DNA of 64,000 bases from Agathobaculum sp. Marseille-P7918 (lineage in GTDB: Bacteria; Bacillota; Clostridia; Oscillospirales; Butyricicoccaceae), in NCBI RefSeq assembly GCF_900625105.1, contig NZ_UYYD01000008.1, positions 1 to 64,000 on the forward strand. Reading direction: 5' to 3'. The notes under the pieces were generated by a model. It saw only the letters and a list, made by a program, of their open reading frames with translations. It did not search any database and was not told the origin of the DNA. Shown piece by piece: positions 42,891 through 48,439 of this stretch. How positions within the stretch are numbered: position 1 is the first letter of the stretch; each line of letters opens with the position of its first letter. The position numbers and the translations under genes are program-made.

Positions 42891-44546
42891 TTATGAATTT
42901 TCGTCCGTGGCCGCCGTCGTTGTCTGGCCGGCTGCGGACTGCGTGGTGGTCGAAGTCGTGGTCTTGGAGGAAGCCGGCTGCTTGGTGCCGACATATACCA
43001 CTTTATCGCGTTTGACATAAGTGGAGCTGTTGGCCAGCACCTCGGTCGTTTTGCCGTTTTCCGTAATCACCTTATAGGTGCGGGTGGAATAGCCGGTGAT
43101 CGGCGTGGTATCCACACGGGTCTGCCCCACCATCATGGTATCGTCCTTTTTCTCGATGGTCTGCGGCGTATAGGTTTCCAGCACTTCCGTGCGGGTTTTC
43201 ACGGTTTTATCGCTGGTCTTGGTGCCGATGATCGTCATGATCATCTTGCCGCCCGTCTGCTCCGCCAGAATCTTGACCGGATAATCCGTATTGTTCTTAA
43301 ACCGGAAATCCAGCGTGCCGTAGTCCACGGTCGCGTCCTCGCCCAGCGGCGTATAGGCCACGGTGAAGGAGTGGTTGTGCCGCTCGGTCACTTCCAGATC
43401 GGCGCGCAGCACCGCCATATACAGGGTCGAGGAAGGCTGGCACACGCCGCCGCCGAATTCCTCAATGACCTGACCGCCCGAATACGCGCCCGCGGGCTTG
43501 TATCCGCGCGCCTCGGTGCGCTCGCCGACCACGCCGTTATAGGAAAACTCATCGCCGGGGTTGAGGATGGTGCCGTTGATGGCAGCCGCCGCGAGACGGA
43601 CGTTATTGGTGCGCGCCGTATTACTTTCGTCCAGCGAGGTGGAGGTCTGCGCGAGCGTATCCTTGAACAGCTTGGTCTTCAGATCCTCCGCCGTCACCTT
43701 GGCCTGCGTCGTGGTGATCGGGATGCTGTAACTCTCTTTCGAACCGTCCCCGATGATGCTTCTGGCCTCTTCCACATCAAACTGCACGCCGATCTCGTCC
43801 GGGATGATGGTCTTGCCGTCTTCCTTGCTGACCGTCGCGTTGACCGGGTCGCCGATCACCTCTTCGGCGATCTTGTCGATGTCGATGGCCGGCGCATCGG
43901 TCAGCTCAGTCGAAACCTCATACGGCGCAAAATCCATCAGCCGGATCTTTTCTTCGAGCAGCGAGCGCACCGCGTCCGTGTCAAACTGGACGCCCGGCTT
44001 GCCCGCGTGGATCGTCATGGTGTCCGTGCCGATCTCCCACGACGGTTCGACCGGCTCGGTCAGCGCTTCGGAAACGATCTCTTCCAGCGCCTTGGTCAGG
44101 CCGTCGTCATCGACCTGCGCGGCGATCTGCGCCTCATTTTTGCCGAGGGCGGCTTTGATCACATCCCACATGCGGACAAACGGGTTGCCCGTGCGGCCGA
44201 CTGCGTAAGCATTCTCCACCGACTGCTCCTCGTCCACACTTTCCAGCACATCCCGCACCGGGATATCATATGTCGTTTCATAAATGGTCAGCGACAGCTT
44301 CGCATCCTGATAGAGCGGCTTGCTCTTGTCCCCGATCGTATCTGCCGCAGCGCTGCGGCTCATCGAACCGACCGGAATCGAGCCGACCGTGACGCCGGGA
44401 AAAATATTGGGATAAAGGTAAGTGAAGCCGCACAGGGCGATCAGCAGCGCTGCCAGCAGTCCGACAAGGATCTTGACCGCCAGCGGGACATGTTTTTTCT
44501 TTTTTCCGGTCTGGGGAGCCGCTGCGCGCGCGGTGTGTTTGGCCAC
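42891..44546 (-). CDS. VanW-family cell-envelope protein
   Basis: A 551-residue protein: basic N-terminus, one membrane helix (about 24-45), two peptidoglycan-binding-like (PG_binding_4) regions (about 80-290), then a VanW domain (about 315-440) with NGTILNPGDEFSYN and GGGVCQPSSTLY. A G5-like region and a threonine-rich tail follow. VanW function is unknown; an extracytoplasmic cell-wall role is inferred. The start is GTG, seven bases after GGAAGG. Confidence 0.88.
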   Translation of the reverse strand: MAKHTARAAAPQTGKKKKHVPLAVKILVGLLAALLIALCGFTYLYPNIFPGVTVGSIPVGSMSRSAAADTIGDKSKPLYQDAKLSLTIYETTYDIPVRDVLESVDEEQSVENAYAVGRTGNPFVRMWDVIKAALGKNEAQIAAQVDDDGLTKALEEIVSEALTEPVEPSWEIGTDTMTIHAGKPGVQFDTDAVRSLLEEKIRLMDFAPYEVSTELTDAPAIDIDKIAEEVIGDPVNATVSKEDGKTIIPDEIGVQFDVEEARSIIGDGSKESYSIPITTTQAKVTAEDLKTKLFKDTLAQTSTSLDESNTARTNNVRLAAAAINGTILNPGDEFSYNGVVGERTEARGYKPAGAYSGGQVIEEFGGGVCQPSSTLYMAVLRADLEVTERHNHSFTVAYTPLGEDATVDYGTLDFRFKNNTDYPVKILAEQTGGKMIMTIIGTKTSDKTVKTRTEVLETYTPQTIEKKDDTMMVGQTRVDTTPITGYSTRTYKVITENGKTTEVLANSSTYVKRDKVVYVGTKQPASSKTTTSTTTQSAAGQTTTAATDENS

Positions 44547-44700
44547 ATGCGTTCCTTCCTTTCGTTTGTTTGCCCGGATACCCAACTTGATCTGCCTCTT
44601 TTCCGCTACTTATATATGCAGATGCGCAAAACATCATACAATTGGCTGAAAAATCAAAAATCAGCATATCCATTGTCATTCGACAGGATTCGCCGTACCT

Positions 44701-46102: not shown

Positions 46103-47005
46103 ATGCCGTCTTTTGCCACCCATCACATTTTTGCCGCCACTGTGCAGCGCGTCACCGGGGATTCCGTGGCGCATATTGCGGACGCCTGCCCCGCCGCCTA
46201 CCGCTGGGGCGCGCAGGGTCCCGACCCGCTTGCCTATTATCACGCGCCCTTTCCCGGCCCGGTGCGCCGCCTGTCCCATCGAATCTATACCGAAGCGCCC
46301 GCGCCGCTGTTTGAAGCGCTTTGCGAAGCCGCCGTGCAGGAACACAACACCGCAGCGCTCGCCTACGTCTTCGGCTTCTGCACGCATTATGCGCTCAGCC
46401 GTGTGACATGGTCGTTCATTGAGGCGCAGGCCGACCGGCTCGCGCTCTATGTGCCCGGATACTCGACCGAAGCCCGCCGGAAGCTGGTCGAAAGCGACAT
46501 CGACGGTATCATGATCGCGGGTTATATCGCAGCCGAACCCGCAGGCTACGAAGCCTTCCGCCTGCTCGACCCGAACGCCGCGGAATGCACGGTGCTCGCG
46601 CGCGTCCTCTCGCGCGCGGCGCGCGACGCCTACGGCATGCGCATTTCGCCTGCTGCGGTCTACCGTTCGCTGCACGATATGCGCCGCGTTCTGCATCTGG
46701 TGCACAGCGGCAGCCATATCCGCGGCCGCCTGCTGCATCTGGAACGCCTGATGGGCAAGACCGGACTGGCCTCCGCGCTCATGCGTCCGGAAGAGCCGCT
46801 CGCCGCCGACTGCGCCAATCAGGAACACCGTCCCTGGACCGCCAACGGCGAGGAACGCACGGAGTCCTTCTGCGATCTGTTCGACGCAGCCGTGCCGCTC
46901 GCCGTCTCGCTGCAGCGCGCCGTACTCGACCGGTATTATCAGCAAAAACCGCTCGATCCGCGCTTTTTCCCCACAGATTTTACCGGCAGCGTGAAAAAAT
47001 TATAA
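46103..47005 (+). CDS. Zinc-dependent phospholipase C-like protein
   Basis: A 300-residue helical protein of the zinc-dependent phospholipase C (PF00882-type) fold. Candidate metal ligands are in FATHHIFA (about 4-11), QGPDPLAYYH (about 38-47), and GFCTHYALSR (about 90-99). There is no signal peptide, so it is probably cytoplasmic, unlike secreted toxins of the family. Substrate unknown. The ATG follows AAGGGG. Confidence 0.8.
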   Translation: MPSFATHHIFAATVQRVTGDSVAHIADACPAAYRWGAQGPDPLAYYHAPFPGPVRRLSHRIYTEAPAPLFEALCEAAVQEHNTAALAYVFGFCTHYALSRVTWSFIEAQADRLALYVPGYSTEARRKLVESDIDGIMIAGYIAAEPAGYEAFRLLDPNAAECTVLARVLSRAARDAYGMRISPAAVYRSLHDMRRVLHLVHSGSHIRGRLLHLERLMGKTGLASALMRPEEPLAADCANQEHRPWTANGEERTESFCDLFDAAVPLAVSLQRAVLDRYYQQKPLDPRFFPTDFTGSVKKL

Positions 47006-47022
47006 ACTTTTGAAATCTAACG

Positions 47023-47153
47023 ACAGGTTTCGCATGACTTCGCCCTCCTTGTTGCGTAAGCTATCCTTTGTTACCAAACTGTAACCTTTGGATTGCGAAA
47101 GGAGGGAATATGGAGAAGGCTTTTTCTCCATACTACCGTCATGCGAAACCTGT
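47023..47153. repeat. 16-bp inverted repeat enclosing the ribosome site and start codon of the M23 peptidase gene
   Basis: ACAGGTTTCGCATGAC (47023-47038) and its exact complement (47138-47153) flank 99 bases. Inside, CCCTCCTT (47043-47050) pairs with the ribosome site AAGGAGGG (47099-47106), GTTAC/GTAAC (47070-47085) forms a small hairpin, and ATGGAGAA/TTCTCCAT (47110-47131) forms another between the ribosome site and the M23 ATG (47141). As RNA it would fold into a three-way junction that hides both the ribosome site and the start. As DNA it has the build of an invertible switch. Confidence 0.8.
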
Positions 47154-47244
47154 TATCTTTTCTTTTCGGCCTGTTTTCCGGCCTGCTGTACGGGCTGGTC
47201 CGCGCCATACTGCTGCTGGACCGCCTGATCGGTCTGGTCTATGA
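47110..47244 (+). CDS. Possible 44-residue leader peptide overlapping the M23 gene
   Basis: An ATG three bases after AAGGAGGG opens a 44-codon frame (MEKAFSPYYRHAKPVIFSF...) that overlaps the M23 gene in another frame and ends at TGA 47242-47244. It has the best ribosome site of the region in the present orientation. There is no similarity to any family I know; it may be accidental. Confidence 0.25.
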   Translation: MEKAFSPYYRHAKPVIFSFRPVFRPAVRAGPRHTAAGPPDRSGL

Positions 47245-48439
47245 CCTGCCGCTGTGGCCCGCGCTCGGCCGCGCCGTGCGCGCTGCCGGACAGCGGCGCA
47301 CCGTCTGCGCGTTTGCCGTATTCGTGCCGCTGTTCTTTGTGCCCGGCGCGCTGCTGACCCAAACCGGCACCATGGTTTATGCCAACGACCGCCCGCTCGG
47401 TCTGGTGGAAAATCCGGACACGCTGTCCGCCGCGGTTTCGGAAATCGAGCAGAGCGCTTCCACCCTGTCGGACGGAGCGTATACCCTGCCCGTTTCGATC
47501 GAAACCAGCACGCTGCGCGCATCCGAATCCCAGTTCCTGACCGAAGACGAGCTCAAAAGCGACCTAATCGAGGCCAGCGGCGAGCTTGACACCCTGGCGG
47601 TCATCTCGGTCAACGGCGAACAGGCTGGCGTCTGCCGCACGGCGGAGGACGCCCAGGCGCTGCTTGACCGCGTCAAAGCCCAATACACCACGGCGGCCGA
47701 CGAAAACACGGACTTTCTGCAAACCGTGCGCGTGGACGAAGTCGTGGCGGAGACCGATCTGGTATCCGACCTGTCCACACTTTATGCGCAGCTGTCCCCG
47801 CAGCTGGACGTGACGTCCACCCGCGCGGTGACCTACACCGAGTCCATCCCCTACGAGACCATCACCCGGGAAAACGACGAACTCGACCAGACCTACTGCG
47901 CCACCATTCAGGAGGGCAGTGAAGGCGAAGCGGTCGTGACCGCCGAGATCCAGACCGTGGACGGACAGGAGCACGGGCGCACGATTGTGGAACGCACCGT
48001 ACTGAGCAACGCTACCGACGAGATCATCGAGGTCGGCACGCGCAATGTCGGCATCGGCACGGGTGAGTTTATGGTGCCGCTCAGCAGCTACACCTTCACC
48101 TCGGGCTTCAAATGGCGCTGGGGCAAGCTGCACAGCGGCGTCGATCTGGCGGTCGATGAGGGCACGCCGGTCTACGCCGCGGACAACGGCAAGGTGATCG
48201 TGGCCGAAGACTCAGGCAACGGCTACGGCAATTATATCATCCTCGATCATCAGAACGGCTACAAGACGCTGTATGGCCACAACTCCGAGCTGCTGGTTTC
48301 GGTCGGCGACATTGTCGCCAAAGGCGACAAGATCGCGCTTTCCGGCAACACCGGCAACTCCACCGGCCCGCACCTGCATTTTGAGATCCATGTCGGAGAC
48401 GAAAAAGTCGATCCGCAGCAATACGTTGCTCTCGCCTGA
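47141..48439 (+). CDS. M23-family murein endopeptidase with G5-like domain
   Basis: A 432-residue envelope protein. A membrane anchor region (hydrophobic segments about 5-25 and 60-80) is followed by an extracytoplasmic part with a G5-like domain (about 230-310) and an M23/LytM peptidase domain (about 325-432). The zinc ligands are visible in LHSGVDLAVD (H and D) and HLHFEIH. It should cut peptidoglycan cross-links. The start MRNLLSF was taken for the hydrophobic N-terminus, though no ribosome site lies directly upstream; an in-frame TTG at 47093 is the alternative. See the inverted repeat at its start. Confidence 0.88.
   Translation: MRNLLSFLFGLFSGLLYGLVRAILLLDRLIGLVYDLPLWPALGRAVRAAGQRRTVCAFAVFVPLFFVPGALLTQTGTMVYANDRPLGLVENPDTLSAAVSEIEQSASTLSDGAYTLPVSIETSTLRASESQFLTEDELKSDLIEASGELDTLAVISVNGEQAGVCRTAEDAQALLDRVKAQYTTAADENTDFLQTVRVDEVVAETDLVSDLSTLYAQLSPQLDVTSTRAVTYTESIPYETITRENDELDQTYCATIQEGSEGEAVVTAEIQTVDGQEHGRTIVERTVLSNATDEIIEVGTRNVGIGTGEFMVPLSSYTFTSGFKWRWGKLHSGVDLAVDEGTPVYAADNGKVIVAEDSGNGYGNYIILDHQNGYKTLYGHNSELLVSVGDIVAKGDKIALSGNTGNSTGPHLHFEIHVGDEKVDPQQYVALA

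Follow-up and report, generated by a model that had tools for sequence, protein, structure and literature searches.

Why does the start codon of a cell-wall hydrolase gene lie inside one arm of a large inverted repeat, and is that repeat used as DNA or as RNA? The gene encodes a G5-M23 peptidase of Agathobaculum sp. Marseille-P7918 and is located in the window, the whole 64,000-nucleotide stretch of contig NZ_UYYD01000008.1 that was analyzed here. The first-pass annotation of this locus had offered two answers, an RNA switch and an invertible DNA switch. The features of the leader and its flanks are seen in Table 1.

Table 1. Positions of the features of the M23 leader and its flanks in the window
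Feature	Position	Strand	Remarks
Upstream gene, co-directional with the M23 gene	46103..47005	+	300 aa; stop 15 bases before the left-arm block
P1 left arm (5' strand)	47022..47038	+	3' end contains most of the -35 element
-35 element ATGACT	47034..47039	+	same in 22/22 genomes; TTGACA in 10/10 outgroup orthologues
Promoter spacer, 17 bases	47040..47056	+	constant length, variable sequence across 22 genomes
-10 element TAAGCT	47057..47062	+	TA[AT]NNT genus-wide
WalR/YycF-type box TGTTAC-N5-TGTAAC	47069..47085	+	6 bases past the -10 element, about at the predicted transcription start
Shine-Dalgarno AAAGGAGGG	47098..47106	+	
Hairpin P3, Shine-Dalgarno to ATG	47109..47132	+	split ribosome site, effective spacing 11
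P1 right arm	47138..47154	+	spans the start codon and codons 2-5
G5-M23 peptidase gene	47141..48439	+	432 aa; G5 domain 228-301, M23 domain 330-425

The inverted repeat and the fold of the leader

The two arms, 47023-47038 and 47138-47153, were confirmed to be perfect 16-base complements lying 99 bases apart, and one additional G·U pair (47022/47154) extends the helix they form, P1, to 17 pairs. The ATG of the M23 gene is found at 47141, with CCCTCCTT facing AAGGAGGG, and the minus strand at the left arm reads AAGGAGGGCGAAGTC-ATGCGAAACCTG, as had been described. No second site for the arm 16-mer was detected in the window at up to two mismatches. The genome contains one full copy of the segment, its remaining matches being 24 bases or shorter, and this single copy ruled out a mobile element or repeat family. 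A known RNA family was also ruled out, since no Rfam 15 family matched the window at gathering; the top weak match, to Magnesium-II, scored 16.1 bits where the cut-off is 40.

Folding of 47010-47170 (161 bases, + strand) gave -64.6 kcal/mol and reproduced the previously described three-way junction with the M23 ATG in the arm. The shuffled mean was -34.75 (z -8.0), and 0 of 200 shuffles equaled the real fold. The minus strand of the same segment folded almost equally well (-63.4) and, therefore, evolution must decide which strand is the relevant one. The longest Watson-Crick helix between a start and its upstream sequence was 16 at the M23 gene, compared to a maximum of 10 at 54 other ORFs of the window, a mechanical list (at least 80 codons, first start with a Shine-Dalgarno-like motif) in which not every entry is a real gene.

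It had also been claimed that the M23 start now lacks a ribosome site. This did not hold up, as hairpin P3 brings the Shine-Dalgarno to an effective 11 bases from the ATG. P3 was predicted in 22/22 genomes with the leader, and its sequence changes among them. The linear gap between Shine-Dalgarno and ATG is 33-64 bases; without the hairpin, it is 9-13 in 21 of the 22 genomes and 17 in G010, with a value of exactly 11 in 16. Between 0 and 11 of 200 shuffled P3 segments folded equally well. A second ATG (47110-47112), out of the M23 frame, lies just past the ribosome site and within P3. By eye, an ATG is present in this stretch in 18/22 genomes and, if used, it would be a competitor of the M23 start. 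An upstream ORF from this ATG was rejected as a conserved feature, given that four genomes (G010, G011, G024, and G002) have no ATG there.

The first-pass annotation had the arm hide the ATG and an inner stem hide the ribosome site, and only the former part stood. The AUG was predicted to be paired in 22/22 genomes. In the predicted fold, CCCTCC in the promoter spacer pairs with the ribosome site, but only in some genomes did the spacers outperform the majority of 20 shuffles, shuffled spacers being comparable in others. Masking of the ribosome site by this inner stem, P2, is therefore not claimed here.

Conservation of the pairing across the genus

The P1 leader was found in 22 of 25 Agathobaculum genomes, which are exactly the 22 that carry this M23 gene. 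The three members of the genus without the leader (G003, G009, and G018) are missing a close M23 orthologue as well; their best M23 E-values were 1e-24 to 4e-27, and those of the leader-carrying genomes were 1e-37 in G020, where the gene is cut, and at most 7e-182 in the other 21. Using the leader in a blastn search, 20 of 60 genomes matched, every one within the genus. A covariance model was built from the 22 leader sequences and searched against 87 family genomes with stricter filters, which are able to lose weak matches. It matched in 22 of the 25 genus genomes, each with an E-value of 1.1e-24 or lower, and its sole match among the 62 family genomes outside the genus (G029, E 0.02) was taken as chance. 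Four weak minus-strand echoes of the model coincide with leader loci, the helix being near-palindromic.

P1 is 15-19 pairs long, with G·U allowed, in 20/22 genomes, compared to 14 at most in 100 shuffles per genome. The exceptions are G010 and G002, with just 9-10 pairs and one mismatch. In the alignment of the 22 genomes, 97.2% of the cells in P1 columns are paired. The whole structure has 92.5% paired cells, which fell to 34-45% after sliding by 1-3 columns, the structure counted being the window's own fold, a choice that favors the unslid over the slid versions. Shuffling of the columns gave 89.8% paired cells and 0 of 500 shuffles attained 92.5%. Pairs that change on both sides numbered 10 in the whole structure versus 6.5 when shuffled (12/500 shuffles as high), and the 29 pair types seen were unremarkable versus 27.3 when shuffled (105/500 as high).

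One P1 pair varies on both sides, nine are invariant among the 22 genomes, and the RNAalifold covariation term was -0.54. Column pair 7/160 is G-C in 14 genomes, A-U in six, and G·U in two, with zero cases of A·C; on the right, the paired base is the third position of the Asn codon, codon 3. In a tree made from flanking coding DNA, this pair changed four times on its left side and five times on its right, and the A-U state requires at least four changes on supported branches. Column 13 forms U·G in 15 genomes and C-G in seven, so that C/T differs in the left arm while the opposite G is constant. An independent-pairs test gave p 0.25 from four pairs and was without power. As DNA, the 16-base arms are perfect in only three genomes (G007, G012, and G000, the genome of the window), and the longest Watson-Crick run in the other 19 is 9-11. 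G·U pairs break DNA symmetry yet keep + strand RNA pairing, which favors RNA and disfavors an inverton. Of the 21 full-length M23 genes, 20 use CGA as codon 2 and all 21 use CTG as codon 4, while a single codon in at least 20 of the 21 genes was seen in four of 28 conserved Leu columns and three of seven conserved Arg columns. The start of the gene is, therefore, among its codon-constrained places.

A search of relatives for covariation had been suggested in the first-pass annotation; in it, P1 pairing was kept, and its changes, either compensatory or to G·U, agree with a + strand RNA. These comparisons support in part that the leader obeys the pairing rules of + strand RNA, with thin covariation from one P1 pair.

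A promoter and a WalR-type box within the segment

The first-pass annotation had reported no clear promoter inside the segment. However, a conserved promoter-like sequence, ATGACT-17-TA...T, is found there in 22/22 genomes. Its -10 element is TAAGCT in 15 genomes, TATCCT in three, and TAAGGT, TAATCT, TATGCT, or TATTCT in one each. Compared to consensus, the promoter is weak, matching 4/6 positions at -35 and just 3/6 at -10, and this is the reason that a consensus scan of the window did not report a + strand promoter at 47034-47062. Transcription was predicted to start near 47069, downstream of the left arm.

M23 relatives with E-values of 1e-40 or better were found in 10 of the 15 family genomes examined from outside the genus, and these belong to three other genera. 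Upstream of the gene, all 10 outgroup orthologues have TTGACA-17-TA...T, which aligns with the Agathobaculum promoter. The -35 element seems to have been weakened upon becoming part of the left arm. The fold-back was absent from 10/10 outgroup loci, in which the longest helix (6-9) was within the range of shuffles, for starts chosen by a script. Two of these loci, L053 and L055 (another genus, about 590-640), likewise seem to form a hairpin that separates the ribosome site from the ATG, and are missing the fold-back arm. With start codons chosen by hand, this hairpin shortens the gap from 37 to 9 in L053 and, less clearly, from 44 to 15 in L055. Judged from these loci, a P3-like hairpin may be older than P1.

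The upstream neighbor is divergent in seven of the outgroup loci (ychF in six and another gene in L054). The other three, L050, L053, and L055, have a co-directional neighbor yet no fold-back and, therefore, such a neighbor alone does not bring the fold-back. Their gaps from stop to -35, read by eye, are 86, 57, and 63 bases, respectively, which is larger than in Agathobaculum. This distribution is no more than suggestive of a link between the presence of the fold-back and a co-directional neighbor gene. The 300-aa protein encoded upstream in Agathobaculum had no match in Pfam or NCBIfam and none that was convincing in the PDB. Its gene adjoins the M23 gene in the 22 genomes, and another genus has relatives with 37-40% identity at two of its loci. 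One more wall protein with a G5 domain (PG_binding_4, VanW, G5) is encoded nearby on the minus strand, at 42894-44585, beyond ychF.

What had been described as a further hairpin of the RNA turned out to have the sequence of a WalR-type box, and a regulator site is the preferred reading over an RNA ligand site. The latter candidate was dropped, as the box explains the sequence better. According to PMC9210968, the WalR consensus of B. subtilis is TGTWAH-N5-TGTWAH, and WalR represses an NlpC/P60 hydrolase that bears two such sites. With the stricter pattern TGTWAC-N5-TGTWAC, three sites were found in the genome of the window versus zero for a reversed control pattern, and they precede the M23 gene, an NlpC/P60-SH3 gene, and a 30-codon ORF. 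Across the 25 genus genomes, there were 75 matches (both strands, some overlapping) versus seven for the reversed control. The strict box is present in 21 of the 22 M23 leaders, the exception being G010, whose second half contains a C. In the outgroup, a box that fits the consensus, likewise 6 bases past the -10 element, is present at L050 and L053, and L055 has one with a single mismatch; a full box at this position was missing from the other seven outgroup loci.

The genome encodes a WalRK-like pair, for which WalR and WalK were the top-scoring families (response regulator, 313 bits with a cut-off of 340; kinase, 470 with a cut-off of 725). Downstream of the pair come a protein with weak resemblance to YycI (Pfam E 0.03), a gene recognized by eye as murA, and a protein of the MBL fold. 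The position of the box, 6 bases past the -10 element, suggests that WalR, if it binds there, would repress. An AUCC/GGAU stem that flanks the box (helix 3) is 86.3% paired and covaries a little. Its 5' side would fall upstream of the predicted transcription start, and part of this stem could be used in the long RNA.

WalR-type sequences were also seen at two other loci of the genome. At L121 1360-2795 (G000:C18 near 282735), three TGTAAC half-sites follow a strong promoter, TTGACA-17-TATACT, ahead of an ORF of about 100 codons and an NlpC/P60-SH3 hydrolase gene; the box TGTAACCGTTTTGTAAC was found again in several genomes of the genus. At L120 1501-1680 (G000:C15 near 135676), a WalR-type box, TGTTACATTTGTGTAAC, lies 5' of a promoter-like stretch, and the 30-codon ORF downstream of it has a good ribosome site. 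This box is also present in G013, G012, G009, G020, G005, G018, G003, G006, and G016.

A probable filter between two transcripts

From the conservation of the leader, its pairing rules, the geometry and homology of its promoter, and the geometry of its hairpin, we infer that two transcripts reach the M23 gene and that translation of the longer one is blocked. The weak sigma-A-type promoter and the WalR-type box would both sit in the loop of P1. In 22/22 genomes, the upstream gene ends 15-21 bases ahead of the left arm and, because this leaves scant room for a terminator, read-through into the M23 gene is expected. The read-through RNA would carry the left arm, and pairing of this arm to the start codon and codons 2-5 would block translation. 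RNA from the gene's own promoter would start downstream of the left arm and leave the start codon free, and in this RNA P3 would shorten the gap between ribosome site and ATG to about 11 bases, allowing initiation. The hydrolase would then be made solely when its own promoter fires, probably under the control of WalRK.

In predicted folds of the long transcript, the probability that the AUG is unpaired was 0.00-0.02 in 22/22 genomes. For the own-promoter transcript, it was predicted at 0.46-0.88 in 21/22 genomes and at 0.11 in G007. The predicted values for the Shine-Dalgarno were 0.01-0.39 in the long RNA versus 0.13-0.56 in the own-promoter RNA, and they were not higher in the latter in 5/22 genomes. 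Since the freedom of the Shine-Dalgarno is similar in both RNAs, the fold-back appears to control the start codon and not the ribosome site. The earlier RNA switch is retained as far as the pairing of the start codon, which is conserved. Because the promoter lies inside the loop, however, we read the leader as a filter between two transcripts rather than a switch within one. Our view is that the leader is probably such a start-site filter, in which P1 silences the read-through mRNA and the own-promoter mRNA escapes. With slightly better than even odds, the -35 element and the start codon are mutual pairing partners joined to a split ribosome site, and WalRK alone controls the hydrolase within its densely packed row of genes. 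We also lean, if only a little, toward one stretch of DNA that both acts as the promoter for the translated mRNA and silences every mRNA started farther upstream.

The strong + strand fold, the retention of P1 and P3, and the covariation of the inner stem could also come from a single long leader that begins upstream of 47022 and is switched by a ligand, temperature, or a protein, the promoter-like motif being coincidental. We consider this unlikely. The 17-base spacing is unvarying, TA...T is found in 22/22 genomes, and the same kind of promoter occurs in 10/10 outgroups that do not have P1. Also, the most conserved inner part is the WalR-type box, P1 is highly stable in both the minimum-energy and centroid structures, and the window lacks an Rfam match at gathering. 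P1 might instead end transcription or prompt RNase III cleavage of the read-through RNA, with no block to translation being involved. A 17-pair helix may be enough for RNase III, and the U-rich stretch UAUCUUUUCUUUU lies directly 3' of the right arm. However, these U-rich bases double as coding sequence (LSFLF), the start codon is exactly within the helix, and no terminator was found by a scan that permits only loops of 3-8. An effect through termination or cleavage is thus given a low probability, roughly one chance in eight.

The remaining two explanations treat the arms as DNA. If they were sites for looping or for a dimeric regulator, the overlap of the left arm with the -35 element and the conservation of both arms would be accounted for. 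This is quite improbable, as the C/T changes at column 13 opposite a constant G preserve RNA pairing and not DNA symmetry, and the distance from the left arm to the ATG ranges from 113 to 149 bases among genomes, so there is no helical phasing. The invertible switch for phase variation drew on the perfect arms of this genome and on the close ribosome site that inversion would yield. It was rejected, and we give it next to no credence, because the leader has the same orientation in 22/22 assemblies (one per species) and the arms are imperfect as DNA in 19/22. Moreover, the would-be ribosome site lies within the spacer and is not conserved.

A start-site filter has the logic of bacteriophage T4 gene e (lysozyme), in which silencing of the long RNA by a helix has an effect of 100-fold, and the DNA that encodes the 5' strand of this helix contains late promoters (PMC3014915 section 29). 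According to PMC3014915 section 29 and PMC2988022, soc, 49, and I-TevI of T4 have leaders of the same type. Both gene e and the M23 gene encode wall hydrolases, and in both the ribosome site or AUG would be hidden only in the longer RNA started upstream, with a promoter within the DNA of the helix 5' strand; the short T4 RNA is well translated. In the Agathobaculum leaders, sequestration of the start codon in the longer transcript is predicted in 22/22 genomes, and a promoter whose transcript omits the 5' strand is present by sequence in 22/22. Unlike gene e, the M23 gene is a bacterial chromosomal gene, known here from its sequence, with a sigma-A-type promoter that reaches into a loop of roughly 100 bases, a WalR-type box, and a hairpin-bridged ribosome site.

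The bridging hairpin resembles the split ribosome sites of T4 genes 25 and 38; in gene 25, a hairpin cuts the gap between Shine-Dalgarno and AUG from 27 to 11 (PMC3014915 section 29). Here, a working distance would be restored in the same manner, typically from 35 to 11. In contrast to the T4 genes, the gap reaches 45 in two genomes and 64 in one, and the hairpin is combined with a fold-back in 22 bacterial genomes. Like the promoters of the WalR (YycF) regulon of Bacillota, as described in PMC9210968, the M23 promoter has TGTWAH-N5-TGTWAH at a peptidoglycan hydrolase gene in a genome with a walRK-like pair. Compared to those promoters, the putative box here sits 6 bases past the -10 element. 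In IS10-type inhibition, read-through RNA from outside folds back over the transposase start, while RNA from the inside promoter escapes. The M23 locus, in contrast to IS10, is no mobile element and has one full copy in the genome. A bacterial chromosomal counterpart was not found in the open-licence literature, searched mostly by title, which does not imply absence from print. The logic of such a filter is known from T4 gene e, and its combination with a split ribosome site on a bacterial chromosome would be what differs.

Read-through from neighbors is frequent among bacterial genes packed in the same direction. This locus makes it testable how cells keep read-through RNA from yielding hazardous proteins, among them enzymes that cut the cell wall. 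The candidate answer is present genus-wide in the sequence, and its logic is that of phage T4 for lysozyme. If it is true, operon maps can overstate the number of translated genes, and start-site mapping together with a search for complementarity between promoters and starts could reveal more filters of this kind.
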